From an uncultured delta proteobacterium (lineage in GTDB: Bacteria; Myxococcota_A; Polyangia; Polyangiales; Polyangiaceae), in contig CAIVJW010000094.1 of assembly GCA_903906315.1 (NCBI GenBank), positions 1 through 64,000 on the forward strand: a DNA stretch of 64,000 bases, read 5' to 3'. The first letter of the stretch is position 1; every line of letters begins with the position of its first letter. This document shows positions 1 through 19,913 of the stretch, piece after piece. The position numbers and the translations under genes were made by a program. The notes below the pieces were generated by a model that searched no databases, was not told the origin of the DNA, and was given only the letters and a program-made list of their open reading frames with translations.

Positions 1-2
1 CG

Positions 3-92
3 GGCGGCACGGGCGGCACCGGCGCCGCGGGCGGCACCGGCGGCACCGGCGGCACCGGCGGCACGGGCGGCACGGGCGGCACGGGCGGCACC
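3..92 (+). repeat. GGC-GGC-ACS 9-bp tandem repeat coding Gly-Gly-Thr linker
   Basis: Ten in-frame 9-bp units, nine Gly-Gly-Thr and one Gly-Ala-Ala, form the first 90 bases and probably continue upstream of the window. It is a low-complexity flexible linker in the surface protein and could change in copy number by slippage. Confidence 0.85.
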
Positions 93-512
93 ACGACGAC
101 CTCGGACGGCGTCTCCGCCGGGGAAGGGTGCCCCGCCTCGAAGGCCATCGTCGCCGACGTGATGCCCGACCCCGGCTACGCGAGCCAGCTCAGGGCCTCC
201 GGTCCGGCGAACATCTCGGGGCTGACCAACGGCACCGCGTACGCGGTCGGCGTCGTGGCGCGCGACAAGATTGGCAACATCGGTCGCATGTCGAACGTCG
301 CGTGCGGCACGCCGATGGCGATCTCCGATTTCTTCAGCATCTACCGGCAGGAAGGCGGCCGCGCCGGTGGCGGCTGCACGGTCGCTCCGCCGCGTGACGG
401 CGCGGTCGCGTTCGCGTTCGGCGGCCTGGCGATGCTCGGGATCGGCCTCGCCTTCCGGAGGAGATCGCTCCGGTCCGCTCGCCGCGCCAGCACTTCGCGA
501 GGCTCCCGATGA
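3..512 (+). CDS. C-terminal part of a surface protein with Gly-Gly-Thr linker, Fn3-like segment and MYXO-CTERM-type tail (partial)
   Basis: The reading frame is open from base 3 and the N-terminus lies outside the window. The visible part has nine Gly-Gly-Thr units plus one variant, a Thr-rich stretch, then a fibronectin type III-like segment with the typical GLTNGTAY strand motif and a MSNVACGTP end. The C-terminus is a Gly-Gly-Cys, a hydrophobic helix (about 20 residues) and an RRR cluster. This tripartite Cys-helix-Arg tail is the layout of MYXO-CTERM sorting signals of myxobacteria, so the protein is probably anchored at the cell surface. The stop overlaps the next start (ATGA), suggesting co-translation with the barrel-like protein downstream. 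The ligand or substrate is unknown because the catalytic or binding part is missing. Confidence 0.8.
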   Translation, partial: GGTGGTGAAGGTGGTGGTGGTGGTGGTGGTTTTSDGVSAGEGCPASKAIVADVMPDPGYASQLRASGPANISGLTNGTAYAVGVVARDKIGNIGRMSNVACGTPMAISDFFSIYRQEGGRAGGGCTVAPPRDGAVAFAFGGLAMLGIGLAFRRRSLRSARRASTSRGSR

Positions 513-1300
513 ACCGCACCCGCCTGCTCTCCGTGTCGGCCGCGATCGGCCTCGCCTCCCTCGTCCTTCCGCGCGCGGCGTCGGCGCAGTCGTCGCTCGC
601 GCTCGACAACGACTGGCGGCGCAGGGATCGCCCTGCCCGCGCCGAGCGGATGATGTCCCCGCAGAGCGCGGCCTTCGAGGCGCGGTTCGGCCCGTACTCG
701 CCCCAGGTCGACTCGGAGCCCGGCCTCAAGGGCAAGCCGTACGAGCAGGTCTTCGGCTCGGGCGCGCAGTTCTACTTCGGCTTCGAGTTCGACTGGCAGG
801 CCGTGCGCATCCCCTGGGTCGGCGTGCTCGGGCCGGGCTTCGCGTGGGGCTACACGCACACCTCGGCGACGGCGAAGGTCACCGCGACGGGGCAGGACTC
901 CGGCGAGAGCACGACCATCACGATCTACCCGATGTACGTGACGGCGGTCCTCCGCGCGGACGACCTGATGCGGCGCACCGGCTTCCCGATCGTGCCCTAT
1001 GGCAAGATCGGCGTCGGCCTCGCTCCGTGGAACACGGGCACCAGCGTCGGATCGAGCGAGTACGCCGGCGTGTCGGGCAGCGGCTTCTCGTACGGCATGC
1101 AATGGGCCCTCGGCGGCATGCTGTGCCTGAACGGGCTCGATCCGCGCGCGGCGGCGTCGCTCGACGAGACCGTCGGCGTCAACCACGTCTACATCTACGG
1201 CGAGTGGTGGCGCATGGCGCTCGATGGGTTCGGCAAGGACCCGCCGGTGATGCGCGTCGGGACGTCCACCTTCACGATCGGTCTCGCCCTCGACATGTGA
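509..1300 (+). CDS. Outer-membrane beta-barrel-like protein, possibly MXAN_2562 family
   Basis: 263 aa. It starts with a cleavable signal peptide (Arg at 3 and 5, hydrophobic core, ASAQ cleavage region near residue 25-30). The mature part is rich in alternating aromatic/Gly strands (for example QFYFGFEFDW and KIGVGLAPW) and ends in a beta-strand with terminal Met. An early FGPYSP...DSE segment resembles what I recall of the MXAN_2562 family of myxobacterial barrels; that assignment is tentative. The start is set by GAGG six bases upstream and by the ATGA overlap with the preceding surface-protein gene, so the two are probably one operon. No enzymatic motif was seen. Confidence 0.65.
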   Translation: MNRTRLLSVSAAIGLASLVLPRAASAQSSLALDNDWRRRDRPARAERMMSPQSAAFEARFGPYSPQVDSEPGLKGKPYEQVFGSGAQFYFGFEFDWQAVRIPWVGVLGPGFAWGYTHTSATAKVTATGQDSGESTTITIYPMYVTAVLRADDLMRRTGFPIVPYGKIGVGLAPWNTGTSVGSSEYAGVSGSGFSYGMQWALGGMLCLNGLDPRAAASLDETVGVNHVYIYGEWWRMALDGFGKDPPVMRVGTSTFTIGLALDM

Positions 1301-1304
1301 CGCC

Positions 1305-1324
1305 GCCGGCCCGTCGTGGCCGGC
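1305..1324. terminator. Hairpin between convergent genes
   Basis: GCCGGCC, a six-base loop and GGCCGGC form a perfect 7-bp stem directly after the stop of the barrel-like gene and before the end of the convergent PDZ lipoprotein gene. There is no clear T tract, so it is a hairpin that may serve both strands. Confidence 0.45.
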
Positions 1325-1386
1325 TCGTCGGTGACGCCGTTCGGGCGCGACGTCGGGCGGGTGCCCTTGCGCCGCGACGACGTGCC

Positions 1387-1998
1387 TCAGTACTCGGTCG
1401 CGCTGCCGCTGCCGGGCGGCGTCTCGTCCTCGATCACGACCGTGCCCTTGCGGATGCCGCTGGCCTGCTGCCGCTTGGGCTCCGTGGGGAGGAGCGCCTG
1501 CTTCGAGGGCTCTCCGTCGATCGGCAGCAGCACCTCGCGCGGGGCGCCGTCGCGCTCGTAGACGATCTTCATCTCGCGCGCGGCTGCCAGCGCCGTCCAC
1601 ACCGTGAAGAGATCGTCCGGTCGCTCGAGCGCCGCGCCGTTCACCGTCTTGACGATGTCACCCGGCCTCAGGTCGACCGTCCACTCCTTCGGCAGGGCGA
1701 GCAGGCGCCAGCCGATGAACTTGCCGTCGCGGAGCACCTCCTCGGTCACGACGCGGCGGAGCAGCCAGGGCGGGCCGTGCGAGAGCGCCTCGTCGACCTC
1801 GGCGCGGACGAGGTGCCCCGGGGCGCGGGCAGCCGCCGGCGCCGCCTTCGCGACCGCCGCGGCGGCCTTCGGTGCTGTCGCGTGCGCCGGCGCAGGAGCC
1901 GACGAAGCGCAGCCGGCGAGGCCAAGGGCGATCGCCGTGATCGCGAAGCTGCGGGCGAAGGCAGACGTCGAGCGCGAGGTCGAGCTTCGGAGGACCAT
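1387..1998 (-). CDS. Lipoprotein with PDZ/GspC-C-like domain
   Basis: 203 aa. The signal peptide ends in the lipobox LAGC with Cys30 as predicted lipidated residue. An Ala/Pro-rich linker follows (about 31-60), then a domain with the pattern LRPGDIV-x-x-VNG (about residues 120-135) and a following strand REVLLPID. This is typical of PDZ-like domains such as the C-terminal domain of GspC in type II secretion. No protease domain is present. It sits alone between convergent and codirectional genes, so its partner is unknown; an adaptor or scaffold role in the envelope is inferred. Confidence 0.65.
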   Translation of the reverse strand: MVLRSSTSRSTSAFARSFAITAIALGLAGCASSAPAPAHATAPKAAAAVAKAAPAAARAPGHLVRAEVDEALSHGPPWLLRRVVTEEVLRDGKFIGWRLLALPKEWTVDLRPGDIVKTVNGAALERPDDLFTVWTALAAAREMKIVYERDGAPREVLLPIDGEPSKQALLPTEPKRQQASGIRKGTVVIEDETPPGSGSATEY

Positions 1999-2121
1999 GC
2001 CGCGACTATGCTCGGGCGGCCCTCGGAGGCCAAATTCCGTGCGTCCGTCCAGGTCCCGCCGCGCGGCGCCGGCCCGGCGGGCAGCCTTTGCTGGCGCCGT
2101 CGGCGAGGGGATCGACCGGTC

Positions 2122-2592
2122 TCAGCCGAGCGCCTTGACGGCCTGCTTCACGGCGTCGTAGTCGGGCTCGACGCCCGGGTTGGGGCCGACCCAGTCGTAC
2201 CGCACGACGCCGGCGCCATCGATCACGAACACCGCGCGCTTCGACGCCGTGTAGCCCACAAGACCAGCGAAGTCGTCCAGGGCCACGCCGTACGCCCTCG
2301 TCACCTCGCGCAGGTAGTCCGACAGCAGCGGGAACCCGATGCGGTTCTTCTCGGCGAACGCTGCGTTGGTGAACGGGCCGTCGACGCTGACGCCGAGCAC
2401 GCTCGCGTTGACCGCGTTGAGCTCGGTCAGCGAGTCGGTGAACGCGCACATCTCCTTGGTGCAAACGCCCGTGAACGCAGCCGGGTAGAACGCGAGGACG
2501 ACCGTCTTCCCCTTGAGAGACTCGAGCGAAACCATCTCCTTCTTGTCGTTGGGCAGGTTGAAGCTGGGGGCCTTGTCGCCGGTCTTGATCAT
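2122..2592 (-). CDS. Peroxiredoxin, Bcp/PrxQ type (thiol peroxidase)
   Basis: 156 aa from the ATG at 2592, giving the family N-terminus MIKTGDKAPSF; an upstream in-frame start would add 12 residues of no family likeness. It is an AhpC/TSA thioredoxin fold reducing hydroperoxides. The peroxidatic Cys44 lies in the FTGVCT motif with Cys49 four residues on, the spacing of the atypical 2-Cys Bcp/PrxQ class. FYPAAFTG precedes it, as in peroxiredoxins. The protein is cytoplasmic, having no signal peptide. It ends at the complete C-terminal helix and has the usual length. Confidence 0.88.
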   Translation of the reverse strand: MIKTGDKAPSFNLPNDKKEMVSLESLKGKTVVLAFYPAAFTGVCTKEMCAFTDSLTELNAVNASVLGVSVDGPFTNAAFAEKNRIGFPLLSDYLREVTRAYGVALDDFAGLVGYTASKRAVFVIDGAGVVRYDWVGPNPGVEPDYDAVKQAVKALG

Positions 2593-2652
2593 GAGGCGGA
2601 CGCTAGTGGCCCATGCGGAGCGCTGCAAGGTGCGCGGGCCGCCCTCGCGGGG

Positions 2653-3540
2653 TCACGTTTCCTGGGTGTTTCCCGCTCGCGCGAGCCGCGCCAGGGCCGC
2701 GACGTGCTCGGGTCCCGTGCCGCAACAGCCGCCCACCAGCGTGGCCCCGGCGGCGACCCATCGGGCGGCGTGGCGCGCGTAGCCGGCGGCTGCGCGGCGG
2801 CGTGCGTCGGCGCGGGATCGGTCGATCCGCGAGGCGTCGCCGACGTCACCGGGGGCGGCGTCGACCCAGCCGAGCTCGTCGCCGGGCGGGCCGGCGTTCG
2901 CGTACGCGCCGAAGGGAACGCCCAGCCCCTTCAGGCTCTCGACGAACGGGTGCGTCCGCGTTGCGGCGACGCAGTTGCACAGCACCGCCGCCGCGCCGGC
3001 GGCGACCGCGGCCCGCGCGGCGTCGCGCATGGCGGCGGGCGTGAACAGCGTCCCTGCGGGGCCCGCCGTGAACGCCACCCACACCGGCAAGCCGGTGGCG
3101 ACGGCGGCCTCGACGGCGACGATCGCCTCGCCCGCGTGCGGAAACGTCTCGCAGAGCAGCAGATCGACGCCGGCGTCGGCGAGCGCGCGCACGAGCAGAT
3201 CGTGCTCGGCGCGCGGCCGTGCAGGGGAGAGGTCGGGCCGGTAGCAGTCCTCGATCGGCGCGACGCTGCCGGCGACGCGGTGACCCGCGGGAACGGCGGC
3301 GCGCGTGATCGCGACCGCCCGCGCCGTGAGCTCGCGGAACCGGGCCCCTGCGGCTCGTGGCGTCGCGCGGAATGTCGCCGCCGTGTGCACCGTCGCACCA
3401 GCGAGGGCGTAGTCTCGGTGAATCGCGCCGACCACTTCCGGCGCCGCCTCGATCGCGGCAGCGCTCCAGAGCGGTGGTGGCGTGGCGACGCCGCGCGCGG
3501 CGAGCTCGGTGCCGACGGGGCCGTCGAGGAGGACGATCAC
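2653..3540 (-). CDS. Homocysteine S-methyltransferase family protein
   Basis: 295 aa TIM-barrel methyltransferase transferring a methyl group to homocysteine to form methionine; the donor could be S-methylmethionine or betaine. The N-terminus LLDGPVGTEL matches the family's DGxxGTEL motif. The zinc-binding cysteines are visible as LCNC (about residue 205) and the C-terminal GGCCGT motif (about residue 273). It matches the single-domain MmuM/BHMT-like proteins in length, without cobalamin domains. No methionine genes adjoin it, so the donor cannot be decided. It lies about 60 bp upstream of the peroxiredoxin gene on the same strand. Confidence 0.85.
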   Translation of the reverse strand: MIVLLDGPVGTELAARGVATPPPLWSAAAIEAAPEVVGAIHRDYALAGATVHTAATFRATPRAAGARFRELTARAVAITRAAVPAGHRVAGSVAPIEDCYRPDLSPARPRAEHDLLVRALADAGVDLLLCETFPHAGEAIVAVEAAVATGLPVWVAFTAGPAGTLFTPAAMRDAARAAVAAGAAAVLCNCVAATRTHPFVESLKGLGVPFGAYANAGPPGDELGWVDAAPGDVGDASRIDRSRADARRRAAAGYARHAARWVAAGATLVGGCCGTGPEHVAALARLARAGNTQET

Positions 3541-3576
3541 GTCGGGGGCGGCGCTCGGCTACGGGGAGGGGGAGGA

Positions 3577-4215
3577 TCAGCCGCGCGCGCGTCCGCGCCC
3601 CGCGGACTTTTTCGCGGTCGCCTTCTTCGCGGGCGGCTTTCTCGCGGTCGCCTTCTTCGCGGCGGGCTTCTTCGCGGCAGCAGGCTTCTTCGCGGCGGGC
3701 TTCTTCGCGGCGGGCTTCTTCGCGGCAGCAGGCTTCTTCGCGGCGGGCTTCTTCGCGGCAGCAGGCTTCTTCGCGGCGGGCTTCTTCGCGGCAGCCGCCG
3801 CGAGAGGCGCTCGGTTGGCCACCTCGGCGAAGAAGTTCTGCATCGGCGCGAAGTAGTGGTCCTGCCAGCCGAGCTCGTAGCCCTTGCCCATGCCGCTCGG
3901 GATCTTCGTGTGCAGCACGGTGACGCGCGTCCCGTCGCCCTCAGCCTCCAGCAGCACCTCGAGCTGCGAGTGATCCGCGTCCTCGGGGAAGTCGCTCGCG
4001 TACCAGCTCTGGACGATCCTGCGGGCGGGATCGAGCGCCGTGGTGATGCCCACGATGTAGCCGTCCCACGACGAATGCTTGGCGCCGACCCTCGCGGTCG
4101 CGACCGCCTTCGCGCCGGTCATCTTCCCGTGGGTCTTGCCGTCGAGCCACGCTGCGTAGATCTGCTCGGGCGACGCGGGGAACACGGCGGACACGCTCAA
4201 CGAGTCTTGCTGCAT
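3577..4215 (-). CDS. SRPBCC/AHSA1 domain protein with a histone H1-like Lys-Ala-Pro tail
   Basis: 212 aa from the ATG at 4215, chosen because GGGGGGAGGAAA lies just upstream and the family N-terminus (SVSAVFPASPEQIYAAW) begins there. Residues 1 to about 135 form an AHSA1-type START-like fold (polyketide cyclase/ligand-binding superfamily). The remaining third is an array of AAKKPAAKKPA units ending in a Gly-Arg basic cluster. Such tails are known from histone H1-like nucleoid proteins and bind DNA non-specifically. Both parts are in one frame with a clean stop. The ligand is unknown; a DNA-tethered ligand-binding role is inferred only from the tail. Confidence 0.75.
   Translation of the reverse strand: MQQDSLSVSAVFPASPEQIYAAWLDGKTHGKMTGAKAVATARVGAKHSSWDGYIVGITTALDPARRIVQSWYASDFPEDADHSQLEVLLEAEGDGTRVTVLHTKIPSGMGKGYELGWQDHYFAPMQNFFAEVANRAPLAAAAAKKPAAKKPAAAKKPAAKKPAAAKKPAAKKPAAKKPAAAKKPAAKKATARKPPAKKATAKKSAGRGRARG
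3600..3800 (-). repeat. Lys-Lys-Pro-Ala-Ala coding repeats
   Basis: Near-identical 15- and 18-bp units (reading GCGGGCTTCTTC on the plus strand) code alternating AAKKP and AAAKKP blocks at the C-terminus of the AHSA1-like protein. The nucleotide identity between units suggests recent expansion by slippage or unequal exchange. Confidence 0.85.
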
Positions 4216-4423
4216 GGGTTTCCTCCCCCCGCGCCGCGACGTGGCGCGAGCTCGACCGAGCCTACCATTGCGGTCGGCCGTGCTGTCGCGCTTCGGCGCC
4301 CCGGCGCGGCTGGTCGGGGCGGACGCGCGGCCCGTAGGTCGGGTCGCTTCGGTGCTTCGGCGCGGTGCTATCGTCGACCCGAGCCGCCCGCTCGAGCGGC
4401 GCGGTCCGGGAGCGAAGAGGACG

Positions 4424-5833
4424 ATGCGACGGTTCCGAATGTTCATCGATGGGCGCGAGATCGACGCCGCCGATCATGACGAGGTCATCGACCCGGCGCG
4501 CGGCGAGCCGTTTGCGCTGTGCCCCCGCGCGACGCCCGCTCACGTCGAGGAGGCCGTCGCGGCCGCTGCCCGCGCGCTGCCGTCGTGGAGGCGGGACGAG
4601 GGCGCGCGCCGCGAGAGCCTCGCCGCGGTGGCGTCCGTGCTCCTGGCTCACGCGGACGAGGTGGGGCGGCTGCTCTGCGAGGAGCAGGGAAAGCCCCTCG
4701 CCGCCGCGGTCGCGGAGGTCAAGAGCGCGGCGCGGTGGTTCTCGTACTACGCGGAGCTCGAGCTCGAGCCCGAGGAGCTCGAGGACGACGCCCAGAAGCG
4801 CGTCATGGTTCGGCGCCATCCTCTCGGCGTCACCGCGGCGATCACGCCGTGGAACTTCCCCGTCGCGTTGCTCGCGTGGAAGCTCGCGCCCGCGCTCCGA
4901 GCCGGCAACACGGTCGTGGCCAAGCCGTCGCCGTTCACGCCGCTCTCGACCCTCCTCCTCGCTTCGCTCCTGCGTGACGTGCTCCCGCCCGGCGTCCTCG
5001 GCGTGGTCACCGGCGGCGCCGAGGTCGGCCAGCAGCTCGTCACGAGCCCCCTCGTCCGCAAGGTCAGCTTCACGGGCAGCGTCGCGACGGGCAAGCGCGT
5101 GATGGCGTCCGCGGCCGCCGATCTCAAGCGCGTGACGCTCGAGCTCGGCGGCAACGACGCGGCGATCGTGCTGCCCGACGTCGACCCAGCCGCGATCGCG
5201 AAGCGCCTGTTCTGGGCCGCGTTCGGTAACTCGGGGCAGGTCTGCACCGCGGTCAAGCGGCTCTACGTCCACGAGGAGGTCCACGACGCCATCGTCGCCG
5301 CGCTCGTCGACCAGGCTCGCCGCGTGAAGCTCGGGCCCGGCCTCGACCCCGGCACGCAGCTCGGGCCCATCAACAACGCGCCCCAGCTCGCCCGGGTGAT
5401 CGATCTGGTCGACGACGCGCGCGCCGCGGGCGGCTCCATCGCTTGCGGCGGCGAGCGATCGCCCGGCGCGGGCTACTTCTACCCGCCGACCATCGTGACC
5501 GGCGCGCGCGCGGGGATGCGCCTCGTCGACGAAGAGCAGTTCGGCCCGGCGCTACCGGTGCTGCGCTTCAGCGACGTCGATCAGGTCGTCGACGACGCGA
5601 ACCGGACGAGCTTCGGGCTCGGCGCCTCCGTGTGGGCCGACGACGTGGAGCGCGCGGTCGAGATCGCCGGCCGGCTCGAGGCGGGCACGGCCTGGGTCAA
5701 CCACCATCAGGACGTCGCCCCGTTCATCCCCTTCGGGGGGGTGAAGCAAAGCGGAATCGGCACCGAGAACGGCGTCGCCGGCCTCTTCGAGTTCACCTCG
5801 CTGCAGGTGCTCAACGTGCGGAGCGGGGCGTAG
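4424..5833 (+). CDS. NAD(P)-dependent aldehyde dehydrogenase
   Basis: 469 aa from the ATG at 4424, which has AGAGG upstream; it is a cytoplasmic ALDH-superfamily enzyme oxidising an aldehyde to the acid. Visible family residues are the TPWNFP motif (Asn144), FTGS-x-x-TGK (217-224), the general base Glu240 in LELGGND and the catalytic Cys274 in GNSGQVC. The C-terminal PFGGVKQSG block is complete, and length and order are normal. The substrate cannot be set from sequence; the GGNDAAIV block and single-gene context fit succinate-semialdehyde or general aliphatic ALDHs. There is no operon partner. Confidence 0.88.
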   Translation: MRRFRMFIDGREIDAADHDEVIDPARGEPFALCPRATPAHVEEAVAAAARALPSWRRDEGARRESLAAVASVLLAHADEVGRLLCEEQGKPLAAAVAEVKSAARWFSYYAELELEPEELEDDAQKRVMVRRHPLGVTAAITPWNFPVALLAWKLAPALRAGNTVVAKPSPFTPLSTLLLASLLRDVLPPGVLGVVTGGAEVGQQLVTSPLVRKVSFTGSVATGKRVMASAAADLKRVTLELGGNDAAIVLPDVDPAAIAKRLFWAAFGNSGQVCTAVKRLYVHEEVHDAIVAALVDQARRVKLGPGLDPGTQLGPINNAPQLARVIDLVDDARAAGGSIACGGERSPGAGYFYPPTIVTGARAGMRLVDEEQFGPALPVLRFSDVDQVVDDANRTSFGLGASVWADDVERAVEIAGRLEAGTAWVNHHQDVAPFIPFGGVKQSGIGTENGVAGLFEFTSLQVLNVRSGA

Positions 5834-6023
5834 GCGCGGCACACCCGCCCCGTCGCGCTCGAGGCCGTTAGATCCTTTCGCGTGGCGGCGCGTCGGAGAG
5901 CCTGCAACGTCCGCCGGGCCCCCCGCGCCGGGCGGCCACGCCGTTCGGGCGCGGCCGGCTCGCGATCGTCCCGGCGCGACCCGAGACCGCGCGCCCGAGG
6001 CGCCGCGGACAAGGAGCCTCGAC

Positions 6024-7496
6024 ATGACTCGGCTTCCCGTCGCCCTCTCCGTCGCCCTCGCGGTCTCCGGATGCGCCGCGAGCGCTGCGCCGCCTGTGAT
6101 CGCCAGCGCTCCTGCGCACCTCGCCGTCGCCGTCGCGGCCGACCCTCCGCCGTCGCGCGCGCCCGACCCGTTCCCCGGGTCGCCCGATCGTCCGCGGCCT
6201 GCCCCATCGGGCGCCTGGATCGGCGCGGCCGGCGACAGCGAGCTGCTTCTCGCGGGCGACCGGGAAACGTTCCTCGGCGTCTGGGTCGACGTGCCGACGG
6301 CCGCGCACAAGGTCCACGCGCCGGTCGCGGTCTCGCTCGTCATCGACACCTCCGGCTCGATGGCAGGCGCCAAGATCGAGCACGCCCGCCTGGCAGCTCG
6401 TGACCTCGTCTTGCACCTCGCCGACGGTGATCTCGTGAGCATCGAGACCTTCGCCGACGAGGCGCGCGAGCGAGTGCCCCCTACCGTGCTCGGGCCCTCG
6501 ACCCGTCGCGACATCCTGGCCGAAATCGCCTCGATCCAGCCCTCCGGTGGCACGAATATGTTCGACGGTCTGCGCGCCGGCGAGTCGCGCGCCCTCGGGG
6601 CCCCGGCACGCTACGCGGTCCGCCGCGTCCTCGTCGTCTCCGACGGGATGGCCAACGTGGGCCCGTCGTCGCCCGAGATCCTCGGCCAGCTGGCCGCGCG
6701 CGGCGCGGATCGTGGCGTCCAAGTCACGGCGATCGGCGTCGGCCTCGAGTACGACGAGCGCACCCTGAACGCCCTCGCCGTGCGCTCGAGCGGTCGGCTC
6801 TACCACCTCGGCGAGCCGCGGGAGATGGAGGCGATCCTCGCCCGGGAGCTCGATCTCCTCGAGTCGACGATGGCGACCGACGCCGTCGTCGAGATCGTCC
6901 CCGCTCCCGGCGTGCAGCTGCTCGGCGTCGACGGCGCCCGCGCCGATCGCGTCGGTGCGGCGCTGCACGTCCCGCTCGGCTCGATGTTCGGCGGCCAGCA
7001 CCGCGAGCTCGCCGTCCGCGTGCGCGTCACGGCGCCCGACGAGATCGCCGGCGCGCGCCCGCTCGCCAGCGTGCGCCTCCGCTTCCGCGATCCCGCCGAC
7101 GGAGGCCTCGAGCGCCTCCACGAGGTCGTCGCCCGCTACGAGGTCACCACCGACGCCGCGGCCGTCGAGCGCCGCGCGAACGCTCGCACCCGCGCGATCG
7201 TCTCGATGCAGGACGCCGCCCAGGTCGCCGTGCGCGCCGCGCAATCCGTCAACGCGGGCCAGCTCGCCGAGGCCGACCGCGACCTCGCGCGCGCGGAGGA
7301 CCGCCTCGCGCAGGCCGCAAAGAAGGCCGACTCGGCCGAGCTCCGCGCGCGCATGGAGAAGGCCGCCGCCGGCATGTCGGCTGCGCGCGCCGTCGCCCAG
7401 AAGGCCGCCGCCGCGCCGGCCGCCGCTCGCCCCGCCGCGATGCGCGCCGGCGCGCTCGACATCAACAGCAAGGGCATGGAGGCTGCGGGCTACTGA
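6024..7496 (+). CDS. VWA-domain lipoprotein
   Basis: 490 aa. Lipobox SGC with Cys17 predicts a lipid-anchored protein; AAGGAG six bases upstream supports the ATG at 6024. The von Willebrand factor A domain (about residues 100-285) has an intact MIDAS: DTSGSM (about 110-115), the SGGTNM threonine and VVSDGMAN. After about residue 300 comes a beta-rich middle part, then an Ala-rich, probably coiled-coil region. The architecture recalls YfbK/inter-alpha-trypsin-like VWA proteins. Metal-dependent protein binding in the periplasm is inferred. It appears to be a single gene. Confidence 0.82.
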   Translation: MTRLPVALSVALAVSGCAASAAPPVIASAPAHLAVAVAADPPPSRAPDPFPGSPDRPRPAPSGAWIGAAGDSELLLAGDRETFLGVWVDVPTAAHKVHAPVAVSLVIDTSGSMAGAKIEHARLAARDLVLHLADGDLVSIETFADEARERVPPTVLGPSTRRDILAEIASIQPSGGTNMFDGLRAGESRALGAPARYAVRRVLVVSDGMANVGPSSPEILGQLAARGADRGVQVTAIGVGLEYDERTLNALAVRSSGRLYHLGEPREMEAILARELDLLESTMATDAVVEIVPAPGVQLLGVDGARADRVGAALHVPLGSMFGGQHRELAVRVRVTAPDEIAGARPLASVRLRFRDPADGGLERLHEVVARYEVTTDAAAVERRANARTRAIVSMQDAAQVAVRAAQSVNAGQLAEADRDLARAEDRLAQAAKKADSAELRARMEKAAAGMSAARAVAQKAAAAPAAARPAAMRAGALDINSKGMEAAGY

Positions 7497-7693
7497 CCGC
7501 CCGCCGGCGGCCCGGTCGTCCTCGGACCGCGACGACGCTCCCCTCGACGAGCTCGTCGCGGTCGGCTTCGCGGCGCCAAGCCGTACGCGTCTCGACTCCT
7601 TCCGCCGCGCTGCCGCGGGCGGGCCGAGCGCGGGGTGGCCTCCCGCAAGGGCGTATCGCGCACCGTTCGCCGCGGTTCTGGTAGCCTCGTGCG

Positions 7694-8749
7694 ATGGCGT
7701 CGGATCCCGATCGCGAGCTCCGGATTGCCCTCGACGCGATGGGCGGCGACCACGCGCCCCGCGCGCAGGTCGAGGCCGCGGCCGAGATCAGCCGAACCTC
7801 GTCGATTCGCGTCGTGCTGGTCGGCGACCCGGAGCGCATCGCCGCCGAGCTCGGGCGCGTCGATCACCGACGAGGGCGCATCGACGTCGTTCCGGCGCGC
7901 CAGGTCGTCGGTATGGCGGAGAAGCCTCGCCAGGCGCTCGACGAGAAGCCCGATGCGTCGATCCTGGTCGCGAGCCGCGCGCTCGCCGACGGCACTGCGG
8001 ACGCTCTCGTGTCCGCCGGCTCGACCGGCGCCGTCGTGCTCGCGACCGCGCGCCACGTGCCGCTCATCGAGGGCGTGCGCCGCGCCGCTCTCGCGGCCGT
8101 CTATCCCACGCGCAAACGCGCGACGAGCGCCGACCGCTTCGCGCGCCTGCTCGACGTCGGCGCCACGGTCCGCTGCACGGCCGAGCAGCTCCTCTTCTTC
8201 GCGTACATGGGGCACGCCTACGCGAGCCGCATCTCGAGGGTCGATCGCCCGGCGATTGGCCTGCTCAACATGGGCGAGGAGGAGACCAAGGGCGACGAGG
8301 TGCTCATCGCTGCCCACCAGCTCATGAAGCGTGACCCGCGCCTCAACTTCGTGGGCAACATCGAGGGAAACCAGCTCCCCTCCGGCGTGGCCGACGTGAT
8401 CGTCTGCGAGGGCCTGATCGGCAACATCGTCCTCAAGATGGCCGAGGGCGTCTTCGAGACGGCACGCAACATCGGCGAGTACGCCTTCAAGACGAAGCTC
8501 CGGTGGAAGCTCGGGCTCGGGCTCCTGTCCTCGGGCCTCGAGCAGCTCAAGACCCTCACCGACTACGGGGAGTACGGGGGAGCGCCCCTGCTCGGGCTGC
8601 AGAAGATCGTCATCAAGGCGCACGGTCGCTCCGGTCCGACGACCCTCGTCAACGCCGTGAAGGTGGCGGCGAAGGCCGTTCGCGGCGGCGTCTCCGACGA
8701 GATCCGCCGCTCCGTCGAGGAGTTCTCGGCGCGCGGCGCGATGACCTGA
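7694..8749 (+). CDS. plsX: Phosphate acyltransferase PlsX
   Basis: 351 aa. PlsX converts acyl-ACP and phosphate to acyl-phosphate, the acyl donor for PlsY in phosphatidic acid synthesis, at the membrane surface. The signature LDAMGGDHAP is at residues 15-24, with further conserved blocks SAGSTGA, LLNMGEEE-x-KG, NIEGN and the helical C-terminal part. Length is normal. The usual neighbours rpmF and fabH are not here; flanking genes are a VWA lipoprotein upstream and a convergent acetyltransferase. Confidence 0.93.
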   Translation: MASDPDRELRIALDAMGGDHAPRAQVEAAAEISRTSSIRVVLVGDPERIAAELGRVDHRRGRIDVVPARQVVGMAEKPRQALDEKPDASILVASRALADGTADALVSAGSTGAVVLATARHVPLIEGVRRAALAAVYPTRKRATSADRFARLLDVGATVRCTAEQLLFFAYMGHAYASRISRVDRPAIGLLNMGEEETKGDEVLIAAHQLMKRDPRLNFVGNIEGNQLPSGVADVIVCEGLIGNIVLKMAEGVFETARNIGEYAFKTKLRWKLGLGLLSSGLEQLKTLTDYGEYGGAPLLGLQKIVIKAHGRSGPTTLVNAVKVAAKAVRGGVSDEIRRSVEEFSARGAMT

Positions 8750-8890
8750 CCCGGCGCAGCTGCGGGCGCTGGGCGCCTCGGCGCGAGCCGTGGCAGTCGA
8801 CGGGAAAGCTCGACGCCGGCGCGCTCACGGCCGTCGCGGAGCCCTCGACGCCGGACTCCAAGCAGCGGCCGGCGAGGCCGCCGCCGTCGC

Positions 8891-10063
8891 TCAGAAGAGG
8901 TCGCACATCGAGGGCGAAGGCCCTGCGAAAAGGGCGTCCGCGAGCGCCACCGCGTGATCGCTCCCGTCGATCGCGCCCACTTGCCGCAGCGCCGACGCCG
9001 AGGCGTGACCTGCGTAGAGCGGCGCGAGCGCGCGCACCGGCAGCCGCAGCCCGCCGGTGCCGCCGCGGCAGGCGGCGCCCTGGCCGCCCTCGACGCGCAG
9101 GGTGAAGCGCCCGTCGTTCTCGGCGCACAGCTCGTCGCGCACCTCGAGCTCGAGCTCGCCCGTCACGCCCGCCGGGTAGCCGCGCGCCTCCAGCGCGTTC
9201 ACCACGTGCGTGACCCGGAGCATCCAGGTGTGCGTGAGTCGCACCGCGAACGTCGGCTCCGCGATCAGGCCGACCAGCGGCTCGGCGGGCCCACCGTGCC
9301 ACACGACATCCATCGCCACCGACCGCTGGTCACCGAGGAAGGTCAGGATCGACCGCGCCGCGCGCGCGGTGACCGCGGCGACGTCGGTGAGGTGCAGGTC
9401 GTGGCGCCCGTCCGGTCCCCGGCGCTGCGTGAGGAACACGTAACCCTCGAGCTCGCCCTCGCGCCCGGCGACATAGCCGTACGCGACCTCGCCCCGTGGA
9501 GCCCCGACCCGGGACCAGACGTACTCTCCCCGGTCGAGATAGCCGGGGCGGCTCGCCGCCCAGGCAGCGTACACGCGCTCTACGTCCGGGCGGTCGGCGG
9601 ACGAGAATGGCCGCAGCGGGAGCGACCGGTCCCCGATCGCCAGCGACCGCGCCGGAACCGTGAGCTCGAAGCGCCCGCCCGCCAGCTCGTATCCCACTTT
9701 GCGGTAGAGCGACTGGGTGGCCGGGTAGAGCGCCGACAGGGGCACGCCGTCGTCGCCGAGCTCGCGGACGAGACCTTCCATGAGCGCCGCCCCCAGGCCT
9801 TGCCCGCGCCGCTCGAGCGGCACGGCGACGCCTGCGACTCCCTCCATCCGCACACTACGCCCGCCGAACCATTGGCCCATCGGGATGCGCATCAGGCACG
9901 CCGACGGCGTTGCCCCGTCGCGCAGGACCCGCACGTTGCCCGTGCCGACCCTGTCGAGCCACGGCCGCGCCTCGGCGGGGGGGAACGCGAACGACCGCCC
10001 CAGCATCTCGCCGAGCGCCTCGGCGTCGCCTTCGACGTACTTACCGTACGATCGCCCGCGCAT
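8891..10063 (-). CDS. Eis-like GNAT N-acetyltransferase with SCP2-like C-terminal domain
   Basis: 390 aa. Two GNAT-type halves are followed by a sterol-carrier-like domain, the layout of the Eis (enhanced intracellular survival) family. The acetyl-CoA binding loop appears as VAVPLERRGQGLGAALM (about residues 78-94), followed by LYPATQSLYRKVGYE, and the chain ends in a C-terminal Phe, whose carboxylate is the catalytic group in Eis. Mycobacterial Eis acetylates aminoglycosides and peptides at several positions; the substrate here is unknown. The gene is convergent with plsX and divergent from the cupredoxin gene. Confidence 0.82.
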   Translation of the reverse strand: MRGRSYGKYVEGDAEALGEMLGRSFAFPPAEARPWLDRVGTGNVRVLRDGATPSACLMRIPMGQWFGGRSVRMEGVAGVAVPLERRGQGLGAALMEGLVRELGDDGVPLSALYPATQSLYRKVGYELAGGRFELTVPARSLAIGDRSLPLRPFSSADRPDVERVYAAWAASRPGYLDRGEYVWSRVGAPRGEVAYGYVAGREGELEGYVFLTQRRGPDGRHDLHLTDVAAVTARAARSILTFLGDQRSVAMDVVWHGGPAEPLVGLIAEPTFAVRLTHTWMLRVTHVVNALEARGYPAGVTGELELEVRDELCAENDGRFTLRVEGGQGAACRGGTGGLRLPVRALAPLYAGHASASALRQVGAIDGSDHAVALADALFAGPSPSMCDLF

Positions 10064-10184
10064 CGGCGAAGCGTAGCCTGCCGCTCGCCCGCTTGACAGG
10101 CCACCGCGCGTGGGCCATTCCCGTCGCCCGTCGTTGCGTGACGGACCTGATTACGACCGCGCCGCAGCCGCGCAAGGAGCCAAC

Positions 10185-10586
10185 GTGAACCCGCGAAGCC
10201 TCGCCCTCGTCCTCGTGCTCTCCGCCGCTCCCTCCTCGCTGCTCGGCTGCGACAAGGCCGGCGCTCAGCAGCCGCCGGCGCCTGCGCCCCCTGCGTCCGG
10301 CGCCGCGGTCACGGGGCGCGTCGTCGCCATCACGGCCGGCGACAGCGGCTTCGTCCCGTCGACGATCCCTGCGGTGAAAGGCGAAGAGCTCATCCTTCGC
10401 TTCACGCGCACGACGGACAGCGACTGCCTGAAGGCGATCGAGCTGCCCTCGCTCGGCATCAAGAAGGACCTGCCGGTGAAGACCCCCGTCGACGTCCCGG
10501 TGCGGGCCGACAAGGAGGGCACCGTCGACTTTCAGTGCTGGATGAAGATGTACAAGGGCAAGGTCGTCGTCGCGGCCGCGAAGTAG
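10185..10586 (+). CDS. Cupredoxin-domain lipoprotein
   Basis: 133 aa from a GTG at 10185 with AAGGAG six bases upstream; a longer in-frame start lacks a ribosome site. The signal ends at LLGC, so it is probably a lipoprotein. The mature part is a compact beta-sandwich of the cupredoxin type with GEELILRFTRT, an early Cys (DSDC) and a C-terminal FQCWMKMYKG loop supplying Cys and Met ligands. In relatives this loop is usually FQCGMGMY. Copper binding in the periplasm is inferred. It faces a YHS-domain lipoprotein gene across a shared terminator, and the two may serve in metal handling. Confidence 0.75.
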   Translation: MNPRSLALVLVLSAAPSSLLGCDKAGAQQPPAPAPPASGAAVTGRVVAITAGDSGFVPSTIPAVKGEELILRFTRTTDSDCLKAIELPSLGIKKDLPVKTPVDVPVRADKEGTVDFQCWMKMYKGKVVVAAAK

Positions 10587-10602
10587 CCCTCGAAATGAGG
10601 TC

Positions 10603-10635
10603 GAGCCCGCCGGCGCTCCAGCGCCGGACGGGCTC
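10603..10635. terminator. Bidirectional hairpin terminator
   Basis: GAGCCCG-CCGGCGCT, a two-base loop and AGCGCCGG-A-CGGGCTC form a 15-bp stem with one bulge, midway between the convergent cupredoxin and YHS genes. No long T tract is present. Confidence 0.6.
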
Positions 10636-10661
10636 GCGTCCCAGCTCGACTGGCGAGCTTG

Positions 10662-11003
10662 TCAGCCCTTCGGCTTCTTCGACAGGTACTTGGCCGGGTC
10701 GGCCTGGAACTTCTTGTCGCAGCCGCCGCAGCAGAAATAGTACGTCTTGCCCTGGTGGTCGACCTTGGGCGACGCCGCCGTCACCACGAACTCCTCGCCG
10801 GAGACGGGGCAGTTCGTCGTGTCGCCGACGCCCGCTTCGCCCATGGGCTTGATGCCGGGCTTGGCCACCGCCGCGGCCGGGGCCGCGCTCGGAATGGCGA
10901 CCGCGCCAGGAGCGGCCGGCGCCGCGGGCACGGAGGGCGCACCGCCGCAGGCGGCGAGGAGCGCGAACGAGGCGATGGAAAGCAATGCGAGTCGCTTGAA
11001 CAT
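10662..11003 (-). CDS. YHS-domain lipoprotein
   Basis: 113 aa. The signal peptide ends at LLAAC (lipobox, about residue 19), followed by an Ala/Pro-rich linker and a YHS/TRASH-like metal-binding domain. The domain shows CPVSGEEF and, after the tyrosine strand, the pattern YYFCCGGCDKKF-x-x-x-P. Its cysteines probably bind a transition metal such as copper. The gene is convergent with the cupredoxin lipoprotein, which supports a joint role in periplasmic metal trafficking, though this is inference. Confidence 0.8.
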   Translation of the reverse strand: MFKRLALLSIASFALLAACGGAPSVPAAPAAPGAVAIPSAAPAAAVAKPGIKPMGEAGVGDTTNCPVSGEEFVVTAASPKVDHQGKTYYFCCGGCDKKFQADPAKYLSKKPKG

Positions 11004-11112
11004 GGGGCCGGTCTACCTCGGGTGATTGGGGTTGTCGAGCGCCGCGCCCGGGGGGCGAGCTCGCGTTCGGGGCGTGCCCGACGAGCTCGACCCCACGGTC
11101 GCAGCCGCGCGG

Positions 11113-12105
11113 TCAGGCGCGCCAGCTCTGAAGGATGCGCAGGTAGTTCGCGCGCTCGAGCGCGGTCGGATCCGGGCAGCGCTCGTGGCTCATGCTGCCG
11201 CGCATCTGCTCGACCGAATGGTAGTCGTGCTCTTCCATCCACAGCACCATCTGCTCGCGCACCTTGCGGAGGTGCTGCGGCCCGTTGCGCAGCAGCGCCG
11301 CCACGAGCTGCACGCCGTCCGCGCCGGCCATGATCGCCTTGATGGCGTCGAGGCCCGTGTGGACGCCGCCGCTGGCGCCGAGCGAGCACTTCACGCGCCC
11401 CGAGAGCATCGCGATCCAGCGGAGTCGGAGCAGGAGCTCGTGCGACTCGGACAGATGCAACGTGGGCACGACCTCGAGCGCATCGACGTCGATGTCGGGC
11501 TGGTAGAAGCGGTTGAACAGGATGATCCCGTTCGCGCCCGCCTTCACCAGCTCGGAGGCGAAATGCGGTATTGACGAGAAGAACGGCGCGAGCTTCACCG
11601 CGACCGGGATCTTCACGGCGCTCTTCATCTCACGGACGAGCTCGAGAATCCGCTTCTCGAGTGCGGCTCCGGGCTCGTACGGGTCGTGCGCCAGGTGGTA
11701 CACGTTGAGCTCGAGCGCGTCCGCACCGGCCTGCTCCATCAGGCCTGCGTAGTGCAGCCACCCCTCGAGCGTCGTTCCGTTGAGCGAGGCGATGACCGGC
11801 AGGTGGACGGCCTCCTTGATCTCGCGGATGCGCTCCAGGTACTTGTCCGGCCCGAGCGCGTAGTCCTCCGCGCTCGGGAACATGGTGGCCGCCTCGGCGA
11901 AGCTCTCGTCGTGTGCGTCCATGGTCTTCAGCGAGCCCATCTGCTCGCGCGCCATCTGCTCCTCGAAGAGAGAATGCATGACGATGGCAGAGGCGCCGGC
12001 GTCCTCCAGGCGCTTCACCCAGTCGAGGTCGTCGACCATCGGGGAAGCGCCCGGCATGAGCGGGCTCTCGAGCTTGAGGCCGAGGTACTTGGTCGTCAGG
12101 TCCAC
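11113..12105 (-). CDS. Dihydroorotate dehydrogenase-like FMN protein coupled to pyruvate:ferredoxin oxidoreductase
   Basis: 330 aa from a GTG at 12105 that has GAGAGGGAAAG upstream; another GTG at 12123 would overlap the nifJ stop as GTGA. It is a class-1 DHOD-like TIM barrel with the N-terminal block TTKYLGLKLESPLMPGASP, a central SLNGTT segment, VAVKLAPFFSS, NGIILFNRFYQPD and the FMN phosphate-binding part ASGGV (about 235) and GADGVQL. Such proteins recur beside NifJ in bacteria and need not make orotate. No pyr genes are near. Ferredoxin-linked reduction is inferred from the neighbour. Confidence 0.8.
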   Translation of the reverse strand: MDLTTKYLGLKLESPLMPGASPMVDDLDWVKRLEDAGASAIVMHSLFEEQMAREQMGSLKTMDAHDESFAEAATMFPSAEDYALGPDKYLERIREIKEAVHLPVIASLNGTTLEGWLHYAGLMEQAGADALELNVYHLAHDPYEPGAALEKRILELVREMKSAVKIPVAVKLAPFFSSIPHFASELVKAGANGIILFNRFYQPDIDVDALEVVPTLHLSESHELLLRLRWIAMLSGRVKCSLGASGGVHTGLDAIKAIMAGADGVQLVAALLRNGPQHLRKVREQMVLWMEEHDYHSVEQMRGSMSHERCPDPTALERANYLRILQSWRA

Positions 12106-12119
12106 GTTCTTTCCCTCTC

Positions 12120-15100
12120 TCACTCGGCCTTCGGAGTCTGCTTGTCGGCGCCGGCCGCGCCCTGCGGGATCATGGCCTCGGCGATGCGCTCGTAGAGCGA
12201 ATACCGCTGCCGCAGGCGCTCCTGCGCAGTCGCCATGAGCTGGTCGTACCGACCCTTGTCGAGCCGCTCGACGAGGTGGAATCGGCCCTCGTTCTTGGTG
12301 AACTGCGCGAGCGTGGACTTGATCGGTCCCGAGTCGATCCTGAGCGGGCTCTCGCCCTTCTCGGCGCGACGCGGGTCGAACCGATAAAGCGGCCAGTACG
12401 CGGACTGCACCGCGAGCTTCTGCTGCTCGAGGCCGAACGCCATGTCGTAGCCATGGGCGATGCAGTGGCTGTATGCGATGACGAGCGACGGCCCCGGGTA
12501 CGAGTCGGCCTCGGCCAGCGCCTGAACCGTCTGATTGTCCTTCGCCCCGAACGCGATCTGCGCGACGTACACGTTGCCGTACGCCATCGCCATCATGCCG
12601 AGGTCCTTCTTGGGGGAATCCTTGCCCAGCGAGGCGAACTTGGCGGCTGCGCCCATCGGCGTCGCCTTCGAGGCCTGTCCGCCGGTGTTCGAGTACACCT
12701 CGGTGTCGAGGACGAGCACGTTGACCTTGCGGCCCATCGACAGCACGTGGTCGAGGCCGCCGTAGCCGATGTCATACGCCCACCCGTCGCCGCCGACGAT
12801 CCACACGCTCTTCTGCACGAGGTAGTCGGCCATGATCCCGAGCCGCACGGCCTCGGGCGTCTTGACCTCGGCGAGCTTCTTCCGAAGCGCTTCGACCCGC
12901 CCGCGCTGCGCCTTGATGCCGGCCTCGCCGAGCTGATCGGCCCCGAGCATCTCGTCGACGAGCCAGGTGCCGACGCGCTCCGACAGGCCCTTCAGGAGGA
13001 TCTTCGCCTGGTCGGTGTGCGCGTCGAGCGCGAGCCGATACCCCAGGCCGAATTCGGCGTTGTCCTCGAACAGGCTATTGGCCCACGCGGGACCGCGGCC
13101 GTCGCGGTTGGTCGTGTACGGCGTCGTCGGCAGGTTGCCGCCGTAGATCGACGAGCAGCCCGTCGCGTTCGCGACGAGGAGCCGGTCGCCGAAGAGCTGC
13201 GTGAGCAGCTTGACGTACGGTGTCTCGCCGCAGCCCGAGCACGCGCCCGAGTACTCGAAGAGCGGCTCGAAGAACTGCGTGTTCTTCACGTCGATCTTCA
13301 CCTGCGTGCGGTCCGCCTCCGGCAGGTTCAGGAAGAAGTCGTAGTTGTCGCGCTCGGCGTCGCGGATCGGCGAGACCGGCGCCATGTCGAGCGACTTGTG
13401 CCGCGGGTTCGACTTGTCCTTCGCCGGACAGACGACCACGCACAGCGTGCAGCCCGTGCAGTCTTCCGTCGCGACCTGAACCGTGTACTTCGAGTTCGGG
13501 AAGTCGGAGGACTTGTAGTCCATCGATTTGAACGTCGCGGGCGCGTCGTCGAGCTCGCCCGGCCCGTACACCTTCGTGCGGATCGCGGCGTGCGGGCACA
13601 CCATCGCGCACTTGTTGCACTGGATGCAGATCGCGGAATCCCACACCGGGACGTCGAGCGCGATATTGCGCTTCTCCCACTTCGCCGTCCCGGTGGGCCA
13701 GGTGCCGTCGATCGGGAACGCCGACACAGGCAGGAGGTCGCCCTTGTTTGCCAGCATCATGGCCGTCACGCGCGACACGAAATCGGGCGCCTTCGGCGAG
13801 ACGATCGGCGAGCGAGCGCGCGTCGAGGTGACCGCGCTCGGGACGTCGATCTGGCTCAGATTCTCGATCGTCTTGTCCACGGCGATGAAGTTGCGGCGGA
13901 GGATCTCCGCGCCCCGGGCGCCGTACGCCTTCTCGATGCCCTCCTTGATCTTGGCAATCGCCTCCTCTCGAGGCAGGACGCCGGAGATAGCGAAGAAGCA
14001 CGTCTGCATGATGCCGTTGATTCGGCTGCCCATGCCGGCCTCCTTCGCGACGCTGTACGCGTCGATCGCGTAGAGCGAGAGCTTCTTCGCGAGGATGACC
14101 TCCTGCACGTCGCGCGGCAGCTCGTCCCAGACCTTCTCCTTGGGGAAGGGCGCGTTGACGAGGAACACGCCGCCCGGCGCTGCCTCAGCGAGCATCTCGT
14201 ACTTGTCGACGAAGCTCCACTGGTGGCACGCGATGAAGCTTGCCTGTCGCACGAGGTAGCTCGACCGGATGAATCGCGGCGAGAACCTGAGGTGCGAGAC
14301 GGTGATCGCCCCAGACTTCTTCGAGTCGTAGACGAAATACCCCTGGACGAACCCGTCCTTCGCTTCGCCGAGGATCTTGAGCGAGTTCTTGTTCGCGCTC
14401 ACGGTGCCGTCGGCCCCGAGCCCGTAGAACACGGCGCGGACCACGTCGGCCTGCTCGATGTCGAGGTCCATGTCGACGGGCAGCGAGAGGTGCGTGACGT
14501 CGTCGACGATGCCGACCGTGAAGTGCCTCTTCGGCGCGTCGCGGGTGAGCTCGTCGAAGACGGTCTTCACCATCGACGGCGTGAACTCCTTCGATGACAG
14601 GCCGTAGCGGCCGCCGATGACGAGCGGCATCACCTTCGGAGCCGCCTCGCCGCGGATCTCGAACAGCGCGGTGACGACGTCCTGATAGAGCGGCTCGCCG
14701 ATCGACCCCGGCTCCTTCGTGCGGTCGAGCACCGCGATGGCGCGCGTCGTCTTCGGCAGCGTCCGGACGAACGTCTCCGTAGCGAACGGCCGATAGAGGC
14801 GCACCTTTAGGAGGCCCACCCGCTCGCCCTTGGCCATCAGCCACTCGACCGCCTCCTGGGCAGCCTCGGCGCCGGAGCCCATCATCACCACGATGCGCTC
14901 GGCCTCGGGGTGGCCGACGTACTCGAAGAGGTCGTAGTGCCGCCCGGTGATCGCGGCAAACTCGTCCATCGTCTGCTTCACGATGCCCGGGCACGCATCG
15001 TAGAAGAGATTGCCCGCCTCACGCGCCTGGAAGAACGTGTCGGGGTTCTGCGCCGTGCCACGCACGACCGGGTGGTCGGGCGTCAGCGCTCGATCGCGAA

Positions 15101-15710: not shown

Positions 15711-16098
15711 TACTCGACCTCCGCCGGTTTTCGGCTCGCGCCCCCGGGGCAACAGCCGGGCCACTTCGGAGGCGGACGCGCGCCGGTCGGGGCGGCGGCT
15801 CGCTTTGGCGGCGCGCTTCCCGGTGCGCCCCTCCCTCATCGGCACCGCCTGCGCGCTTCCCGTGTTCGGCGCGCAGATCGTGCGCGCGCTACCGACCGCT
15901 CTCCGTCCGTTCAGCGCCGCCGGTGCGCGCCGGGCCGCAATCGATGCAGGGGGGGCCGGTCGGAGGGCCAGCCTCGCGCGTACGCCGGGGACGGTCGTCC
16001 GTCCGGGTGGTCCGGTCGGAGCTCCGACCCCACAAAACGGCCGCGGCGCAGAGGTGAGGCCCCTGCGCCGCGGCGCGGTCGCGCCCGCGGTCGCGCGC
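15711..16098. other. Intergenic region (388 bp) with terminator, no gene seen
   Basis: GC-rich spacer between the end of the CbcL-like gene and the start of nifJ, both leftward. It holds the strong hairpin at 16040-16074 and, next to nifJ, its ribosome-binding site. I see no convincing coding frame or conserved RNA. The nifJ promoter should lie here. Confidence 0.6.
16040..16074 (-). terminator. Intrinsic terminator of the leftward cytochrome operon
   Basis: A perfect 12-bp inverted repeat (GCCGCGGCGCAG and its complement) has an 11-base loop. On the minus strand it is followed by CGTTTTG. It lies 25 bp past the CbcL-like stop codon, which fits a Rho-independent end for the operon. Confidence 0.75.
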
Positions 16099-18240: not shown

Positions 18241-18286
18241 CACGGCTTCCGCAGCCTGGGGCTCGAGCCCCGGCGGCGGCCTCGTG

Positions 18287-19846: not shown

Positions 19847-19913
19847 GAATCGCTCCTCGTTGCCGCTTCAAAGGCGGGCCGACCGATGCGCCCAGCAGCC
19901 GCAGACCATGCCG

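Follow-up and report, generated by a model that had tools for sequence, protein, structure and literature searches.

The locus at positions 3577–4215 of the window (the whole stretch of 64,000 nucleotides analysed here) raises the question of whether the joining of a compact AHSA1-type domain to a long Lys/Ala/Pro-rich end is genuine, to which proteins the folded part is related and what such a tail would do for it. The open reading frame 4215..3577 on the minus strand comprises 212 codons followed by a stop codon, and its start position is the same as in many homologues. It lies in a genome of 8.8 Mb in 455 contigs (G000, contig 94). The following features were delineated:

3577–4215, minus strand: gene for the 212-residue fusion protein (Aha1-CTD-like domain plus H1-like tail), placed by the open frame, the GGAGG motif and the starts of homologues
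4222–4226, minus strand: Shine-Dalgarno-like GGAGG, read from the minus strand, with a 6-nt spacing to the ATG
3811–4215, minus strand: globular AHSA1/Aha1-CTD-like domain, residues 1–135 (Pfam AHSA1, AlphaFold2, solved folds)
3580–3810, minus strand: Lys/Ala/Pro-rich tail, residues 136–212 (composition, low pLDDT)
3658–3786, minus strand: tandem array ABABAABA (exact match, TRF arrays)
2653–3540, minus strand: downstream neighbour, a homocysteine S-methyltransferase domain protein (Pfam PF02574, 175.6 bits), 36 bases past the stop codon

Within its own genome the protein appears singular, with one AHSA1 match in total and a tail sequence that matches itself alone among the 150 scored of 770 candidates. 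Its neighbours in the window are the homocysteine S-methyltransferase and an aldehyde dehydrogenase. For possible plasmid spread, a DNA search with window positions 1–20000 yielded nifJ-like and aldehyde dehydrogenase matches alone, in five records, and a protein search gave no match. Window positions 12367–15677 share about 72% DNA identity with nifJ (pyruvate:ferredoxin oxidoreductase) from Azospirillum plasmids, and the window opens with a 9-bp tandem repeat, CGGGCGGCA, present in about 10 copies at positions 1–91.

Composition and repeat DNA of the tail

The tail, residues 136–212, comprises 32 Ala, 23 Lys, 11 Pro and 4 Arg and is devoid of Asp and Glu. Its 77 residues account for 36% of the chain, in agreement with the preliminary description of a Lys-Ala-Pro tail of about a third. 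It contains 27 Lys plus Arg and has a pI of 12; the pI of the domain (about residues 1–135) is 5.4. In the AlphaFold2 model the block means of pLDDT were in the range of 53–68 from residue 141 onward, and the tail would accordingly be predicted as disordered in the cell. With its long Lys/Ala/Pro carboxy-terminus, the absence of acidic residues and the predicted disorder it has the hallmarks of the H1-like K/A/P tail class. Unlike chlamydial Hc2 and the H1-like proteins it scores below the thresholds of the established models, with 30.4 bits for Pfam HC2 (PF07382, cut-off 40) and 30.1 and 22.5 bits for the NCBIfam H1-like models NF038053 and NF038052 (cut-offs 80 and 135). As judged from its residues, the tail is H1-like by composition and not a member of the HC2 or NCBIfam H1-like families. 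We know of no AHSA1-type domain in Hc2 or in the Bordetella/Burkholderia H1-like proteins.

The underlying DNA is highly repetitive. Positions 3658–3786 form an array of 129 nt in the order A-B-A-B-A-A-B-A, built of five 15-nt units (A, encoding KKPAA) and three 18-nt units (B, encoding KKPAAA) with zero mismatches, and overlapping tandem arrays were detected by TRF at 3601–3792. The 18-nt unit retains synonymous codons of its own (CCT, GCT) where the 15-nt unit has others, which argues for duplication at the DNA level and not for codon preference alone. Perfect units of this kind indicate that the tail grew recently, as had been proposed from its near-identical repeat DNA. The array finishes in frame in a distinct, non-repeat carboxy-terminus.

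Identity of the folded domain

Residues 14–123 match Pfam AHSA1 (PF08327) with an E value of 3.5e-13 and 50.3 bits (cut-off 22.1), as do all 24 rows of our A1 profile at E ≤ 0.01, and AlphaFold2 predicted residues 1–130 with pLDDT values of about 95–99. In having the Pfam AHSA1 signature and a helix-grip fold the domain resembles generic bacterial AHSA1/SRPBCC proteins. Its closest PDB sequences by profile comparison were eukaryotic Aha1 C-terminal domains (CTDs) with E values of 4e-25 and 3e-28, far ahead of the bacterial entries TxnO9 (1.6e-8) and CalU16 (0.091). A Foldseek search with the predicted structure returned eukaryotic Aha1-type domains in all top eight PDB rows, and comparison with 8z3h gave a TM-score of 0.91 by target length, an rmsd of 1.5 and 24% identity. 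For a tail-less family member (L031) the first matches were likewise the Aha1 proteins of Plasmodium and human.

Two generic AHSA1 proteins from the window's order served as controls; their Pfam scores, 103.2 and 83.8 bits, exceed that of the window protein. Unlike the window family, both matched bacterial AHSA1-like structures and, at E ≤ 0.1, gave no match to human Aha1; a weak match to the Plasmodium protein (0.00046) appeared for one, behind nine bacterial entries. By profile and predicted structure, the domain is thus closest to the eukaryotic Aha1 CTD and not a generic START/AHSA1 protein. The label Aha1-CTD-like is our own and denotes agreement in sequence and fold rather than placement in a tree including eukaryotic sequences. 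Of the initial assignment as a START-like, ligand-binding AHSA1-type domain, the AHSA1 fold held, whereas the generic START and ligand-binding part was an inference from the superfamily to which the nearer kinship with the Aha1 CTD is to be preferred; a Pfam START match was not found in the window protein.

In an alignment of 83 rows, the conserved positions are H29 (78 rows), T33 (79), W71 (82), W117 (83) and Y121 (83), together with R72, which is kept in 81 rows and replaced by Tyr in the window protein. Human Aha1 has W71, R72, W117 and Y121 in common with the family and a Val at the position of H29. Unlike eukaryotic Aha1, the window protein has no N-terminal Aha1 domain (Aha1_N) detectable by Pfam and, as outlined below, the family exhibits no dependence on Hsp90 across genomes. 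To our knowledge, human Aha1 carries no comparable Lys tail.

Distribution and history of the tail in relatives

To follow the fusion across relatives, we defined a tail as at least 20 residues with at least 20% Lys plus Arg. A search with the domain alone in family and order gave matches in 30 of 59 genomes, the A1 profile (24 rows), with a threshold of E ≤ 1e-10, reached 83 of the order's 183 genomes, and a profile search of a sample of the phylum reached 87 of 377 genomes at E ≤ 1e-20. The counts cover 115 distinct cores of at least 95 bits, after 12 of 127 cores below this score had been dropped; outside the order, ends were read in 25 of the 49 matching genomes, and one core there is identical to L031. 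A basic tail was borne by 66 of the 115 cores (eight of these tails run past the end of the available stretch), 42 had none, two had a short basic end and five were cut off. Within the order (86 cores) the corresponding numbers were 61, 18, 2 and 5, with 22, 8, 2 and 3 for the window protein's own family including itself and 39, 10, 0 and 2 for the other families. Of four cores from the same class outside the order, three were tailed and one was not, and none of 20 cores from other classes of the phylum had a tail. Among five metagenome-assembled genome (MAG) records known by their NCBI titles, two were tailed and three were not; the tailed ones are L033, whose MAG bears the label Myxococcaceae, and L034, which comes from a Hyphomicrobiales MAG and has a core identical to that of L035.

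The proposed search for the fusion in other Myxococcota was thereby answered positively for the order (61 of 86) and the class, and negatively for the 20 cores of other classes. Relatives lacking the tail, which had been named as evidence against the fusion, do exist (42 of 115), yet the tail recurs in dozens of assemblies. The fusion is a genuine architecture, conserved and confined to a lineage. In one family of the order (f5), 30 of 35 cores are tailed, and the remaining five, four tail-less and one cut off, are second copies that branch separately. These f5 copies (L114–L118) form a long branch of their own and, like L120, L121 and L122, share their genomes with another, mostly tailed copy; tailed and tail-less copies reside together in some genomes (e.g., G092, G037). 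Frameshifted hidden tails were found in none of the 44 tail-less relatives checked. One homologue (L010, G016:C35) has an in-frame TAG within the domain and otherwise intact halves, the second with a KPAPK-repeat tail, which suggests a pseudogene or a sequencing error.

Such tails are rare on other genes. Of the called genes in sampled stretches, 2 of 342 had one in two tail-bearing relatives (2/154 and 0/188; 200 kb each) and none of 182 in the 244 kb taken from the own genome, in which the window gene itself had escaped the gene caller. Among 819 open reading frames of at least 90 residues in the same 244 kb, a K-rich 40-mer occurred once, in the window gene. Comparing the 61 tails on the 81 order cores with determined ends to the 2 of 342 genes at large gave a Fisher p of about 2e-53, with kinship ignored. 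A different protein of a relative (L153:16269–17636, G133) has a long Lys/Ala/Thr/Pro tail and measures 455 residues from its first possible start.

Composition was scored in 65 tails, with the N-containing tail of L016 excluded. The median length was 156 residues (23–336) and the median net charge +39, and the mean Lys fraction was 0.263 in the coding frame versus 0.002–0.032 when the same DNA was read in its five other frames. Dominant repeat units vary by clade (KKPAA, PASAK, KAPA, PAKKAK, KKKA and others), as seen for KKPAA in the window, PASAKR in L012, AKPPAKKK in L003, AAPKKK in L016 and KAPAK in L046. In close pairs the tails diverged faster than the domains: L096 and L099 (tails of 137 and 166 residues) are 91% identical in the domain and 70% in the tail, and L075 and L076 (127 and 156 residues) 94% and 68%. 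Differing repeat DNA that yields one composition in one frame at free length indicates selection on net charge and flexibility, and these sequence patterns point to tails kept under selection for charge. In the f5 proteins (L018, L019, L054 and others) a conserved linker comes after the domain, then an acidic stretch and a K/A/E-rich segment, which may be helical, with the basic end last. We take this acidic-then-basic order to resemble that of CarD.

At least nine changes of tail state were required on a 91-row domain tree and at least seven on an 85-row tree (mixture model, wider sampling). Supported sister groups mix tailed and tail-less members (L066 with L006; L012 with L005 and L100), and the window protein is located near tail-less relatives in both trees, in which the deep forks are not resolved. 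Together, the trees suggest several independent tail origins. As forcing all 45 tail-bearing rows together was not rejected (p-AU 0.127), we do not claim repeated gain as established.

Possible roles of the tailed domain

We lean, by a modest margin, towards an Aha1-CTD-like module that would be tethered on the nucleoid in a sequence-independent manner by its H1-like tail. The gene product would be a single-copy cytoplasmic protein, in which an acidic, compact module of helix-grip fold would bind another protein or, in its groove, a small hydrophobic ligand. The long, disordered and positively charged tail would bind DNA by charge, without sequence preference, and thereby hold the module on the nucleoid, as the preliminary description had proposed. 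Repeat unit and length would drift by slippage or unequal recombination while the charge is retained. The eukaryotic Aha1 CTD itself is a protein-binding module.

DNA binding by the tail is inferred from the precedents of CarD, PhaF, AlgP and Hc2. In myxobacteria, the C-terminal domain of CarD is rich in K/A/P, binds DNA and is H1-like or HMGA-like by lineage (PMC9304148). For AlgP and PhaF, DNA binding by their KPAA-repeat tails and a part of these tails in granule tethering are reported (PMC9239181, PMC3574117). Hc2 is a DNA-binding protein whose length varies via Lys-rich repeats (PMC2848022), and the disordered C-terminal tail of mycobacterial MDP1 organises the genome (PMC5974015). CarD of Myxococcus/Anaeromyxobacter, probably of the same phylum, likewise combines a folded partner-binding module with a basic K/A/P-rich carboxy-terminus. 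Its module is the RNA-polymerase-binding CarD_CdnL_TRCF domain, unlike the AHSA1/Aha1 fold of the window protein, which is thus not a CarD member. PhaF and AlgP of Pseudomonas share with the window protein a globular or helical amino-terminus followed by a disordered KPAA-type tail, for which DNA binding is reported in their case, and the AlgP tail, described there with 154 residues of repeats, exceeds the window tail. Their folded parts are unrelated, being a phasin in PhaF and an uncharacterised helical domain in AlgP. Chlamydial Hc2 and the Bordetella/Burkholderia H1-like proteins have Lys-rich repeats in variable number in common with the window tail.

Several observations speak against the nucleoid tether. 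Among the 115 cores, the 42 tail-less ones include some from the same family, indicating that the domain is able to work without the tail, and the closest relatives of the window protein by tree path are tail-less. There is no conserved gene neighbour tying the fusion gene to a DNA process, and the acidic stretch and K/E/A-rich segments that precede some f5 tails differ from a plain H1 tail. Moreover, basic tails bind RNA, ribosomes or polyphosphate too.

The last point gives rise to the best surviving alternative, a minor possibility in our judgement, in which the tail would bind polyanions in general, with polyphosphate or RNA/ribosomes as its main target, and place the domain on polyphosphate granules or translating ribosomes instead of DNA. 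AT-hooks or other sequence-specific DNA motifs are absent from the window tail, and the AlgP study describes its KPAA tail as required for polyphosphate granule spacing and AlgP as associated with granules (PMC9239181). The same precedents weigh on the side of DNA, as DNA binding has been reported for the tails of AlgP and PhaF and is a property of myxobacterial CarD.

Rather improbable is a near-neutral tail, that is, low-complexity sequence grown by slippage in GC-rich DNA and tolerated on a small enzyme or ligand-binding protein. The perfect repeats, the length shifts between close relatives and the tail-less relatives would all fit such an origin. A neutral tail would have to reconcile clade-specific repeat DNA with a shared amino-acid composition in a single frame (Lys 0.263 versus at most 0.032), the rarity of such tails on other genes, and f5, in which 30 of 35 cores are tailed and the exceptions are second copies that group apart.

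Hsp90 is the known partner of Aha1, and a third alternative is a co-chaperone of bacterial Hsp90 (HtpG), in which the Aha1-CTD-like domain would stimulate HtpG and the tail would be accessory. Although eukaryotic Aha1 CTDs are its nearest solved relatives by profile and fold and its own genome contains an HSP90 match, we consider this very unlikely. HSP90 matches were present in 132 of the 183 genomes of the order, or 124 after removal of eight with weak or partial matches, which were counted as absent (G061, G062, G063, G069, G071, G076, G101 and G043). Of the 83 genomes carrying the family, 43 had HSP90 and 40 had no convincing match, with only 3 of 30 positive among the f5 carriers. Across the 183 genomes, the presence of the family and of HSP90 was negatively associated (Fisher p 3e-5, kinship ignored). 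With 40 of 83 carriers lacking convincing HSP90, HtpG co-chaperone activity was rejected as a general role, and together with the missing N-terminal domain this sets the protein apart from the Aha1 Hsp90 co-chaperones.

A conserved operon was also rejected, as neighbours differ between clades and share no common partner. In 29 loci (28 of f5 and one of f9, e.g., L013, L019, L039) a divergent gene lies upstream of the fusion gene, which we take to resemble 5-oxoprolinase/hydantoinase. The f5 genes usually have this presumed 5-oxoprolinase/hydantoinase-like protein on one side and a presumed leucyl aminopeptidase-like protein downstream, and in eight loci of another family (f1) the neighbouring gene presumably resembles M18 aminopeptidase.

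An assembly or sequencing artefact in this contig, as could be suspected from the 455-contig genome, a perfect 129-nt array difficult for short reads and an N run followed by a shifted frame inside the tail of a relative (L016), is hardly credible, because 66 of 115 cores, drawn from many assemblies, have the architecture, some of them on contigs of several hundred kilobases or more (G087:C1, G133:C1), and the array ends in a distinct in-frame, non-repeat carboxy-terminus. The recurrence of the tail in dozens of separate assemblies excludes the assembly error that had been named as a possible refutation for the fusion, leaving aside the exact copy number of the repeats in this MAG. The N run and frame shift of L016 suggest that repeat tails of this type disrupt assembly from short reads.

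An H1-like tail on a folded module is already known, and what is unexpected here is that the module is akin to eukaryotic Aha1. We found no published description of a fusion of an Aha1-like domain with an H1-like tail in a literature that covered few subscription papers. A more far-reaching reading, which we put forward as speculative and would not expect to hold in full, is that a lineage of the Aha1 CTD has become, in one bacterial class, a nucleoid-tethered protein- or ligand-binding module, with several rounds of gain, loss and rebuilding of its H1-like tail out of differing repeat DNA. The protein would then represent an undescribed type of chaperone or sensor domain anchored on DNA, and its bacterial lineage would be sister to the eukaryotic Aha1 CTD.

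If the nucleoid tether is true, H1-like tails would extend beyond nucleoid proteins, transcription factors and granule proteins to the placing of an Aha1-type domain on bacterial DNA. The family offers a natural series of tail-less, short, long and rebuilt tails on one domain, from which the charge and length needed for holding a protein on the nucleoid may be read. The presence of an Aha1-like domain in genomes devoid of HtpG raises the question of what job this fold performs without an Hsp90 partner.
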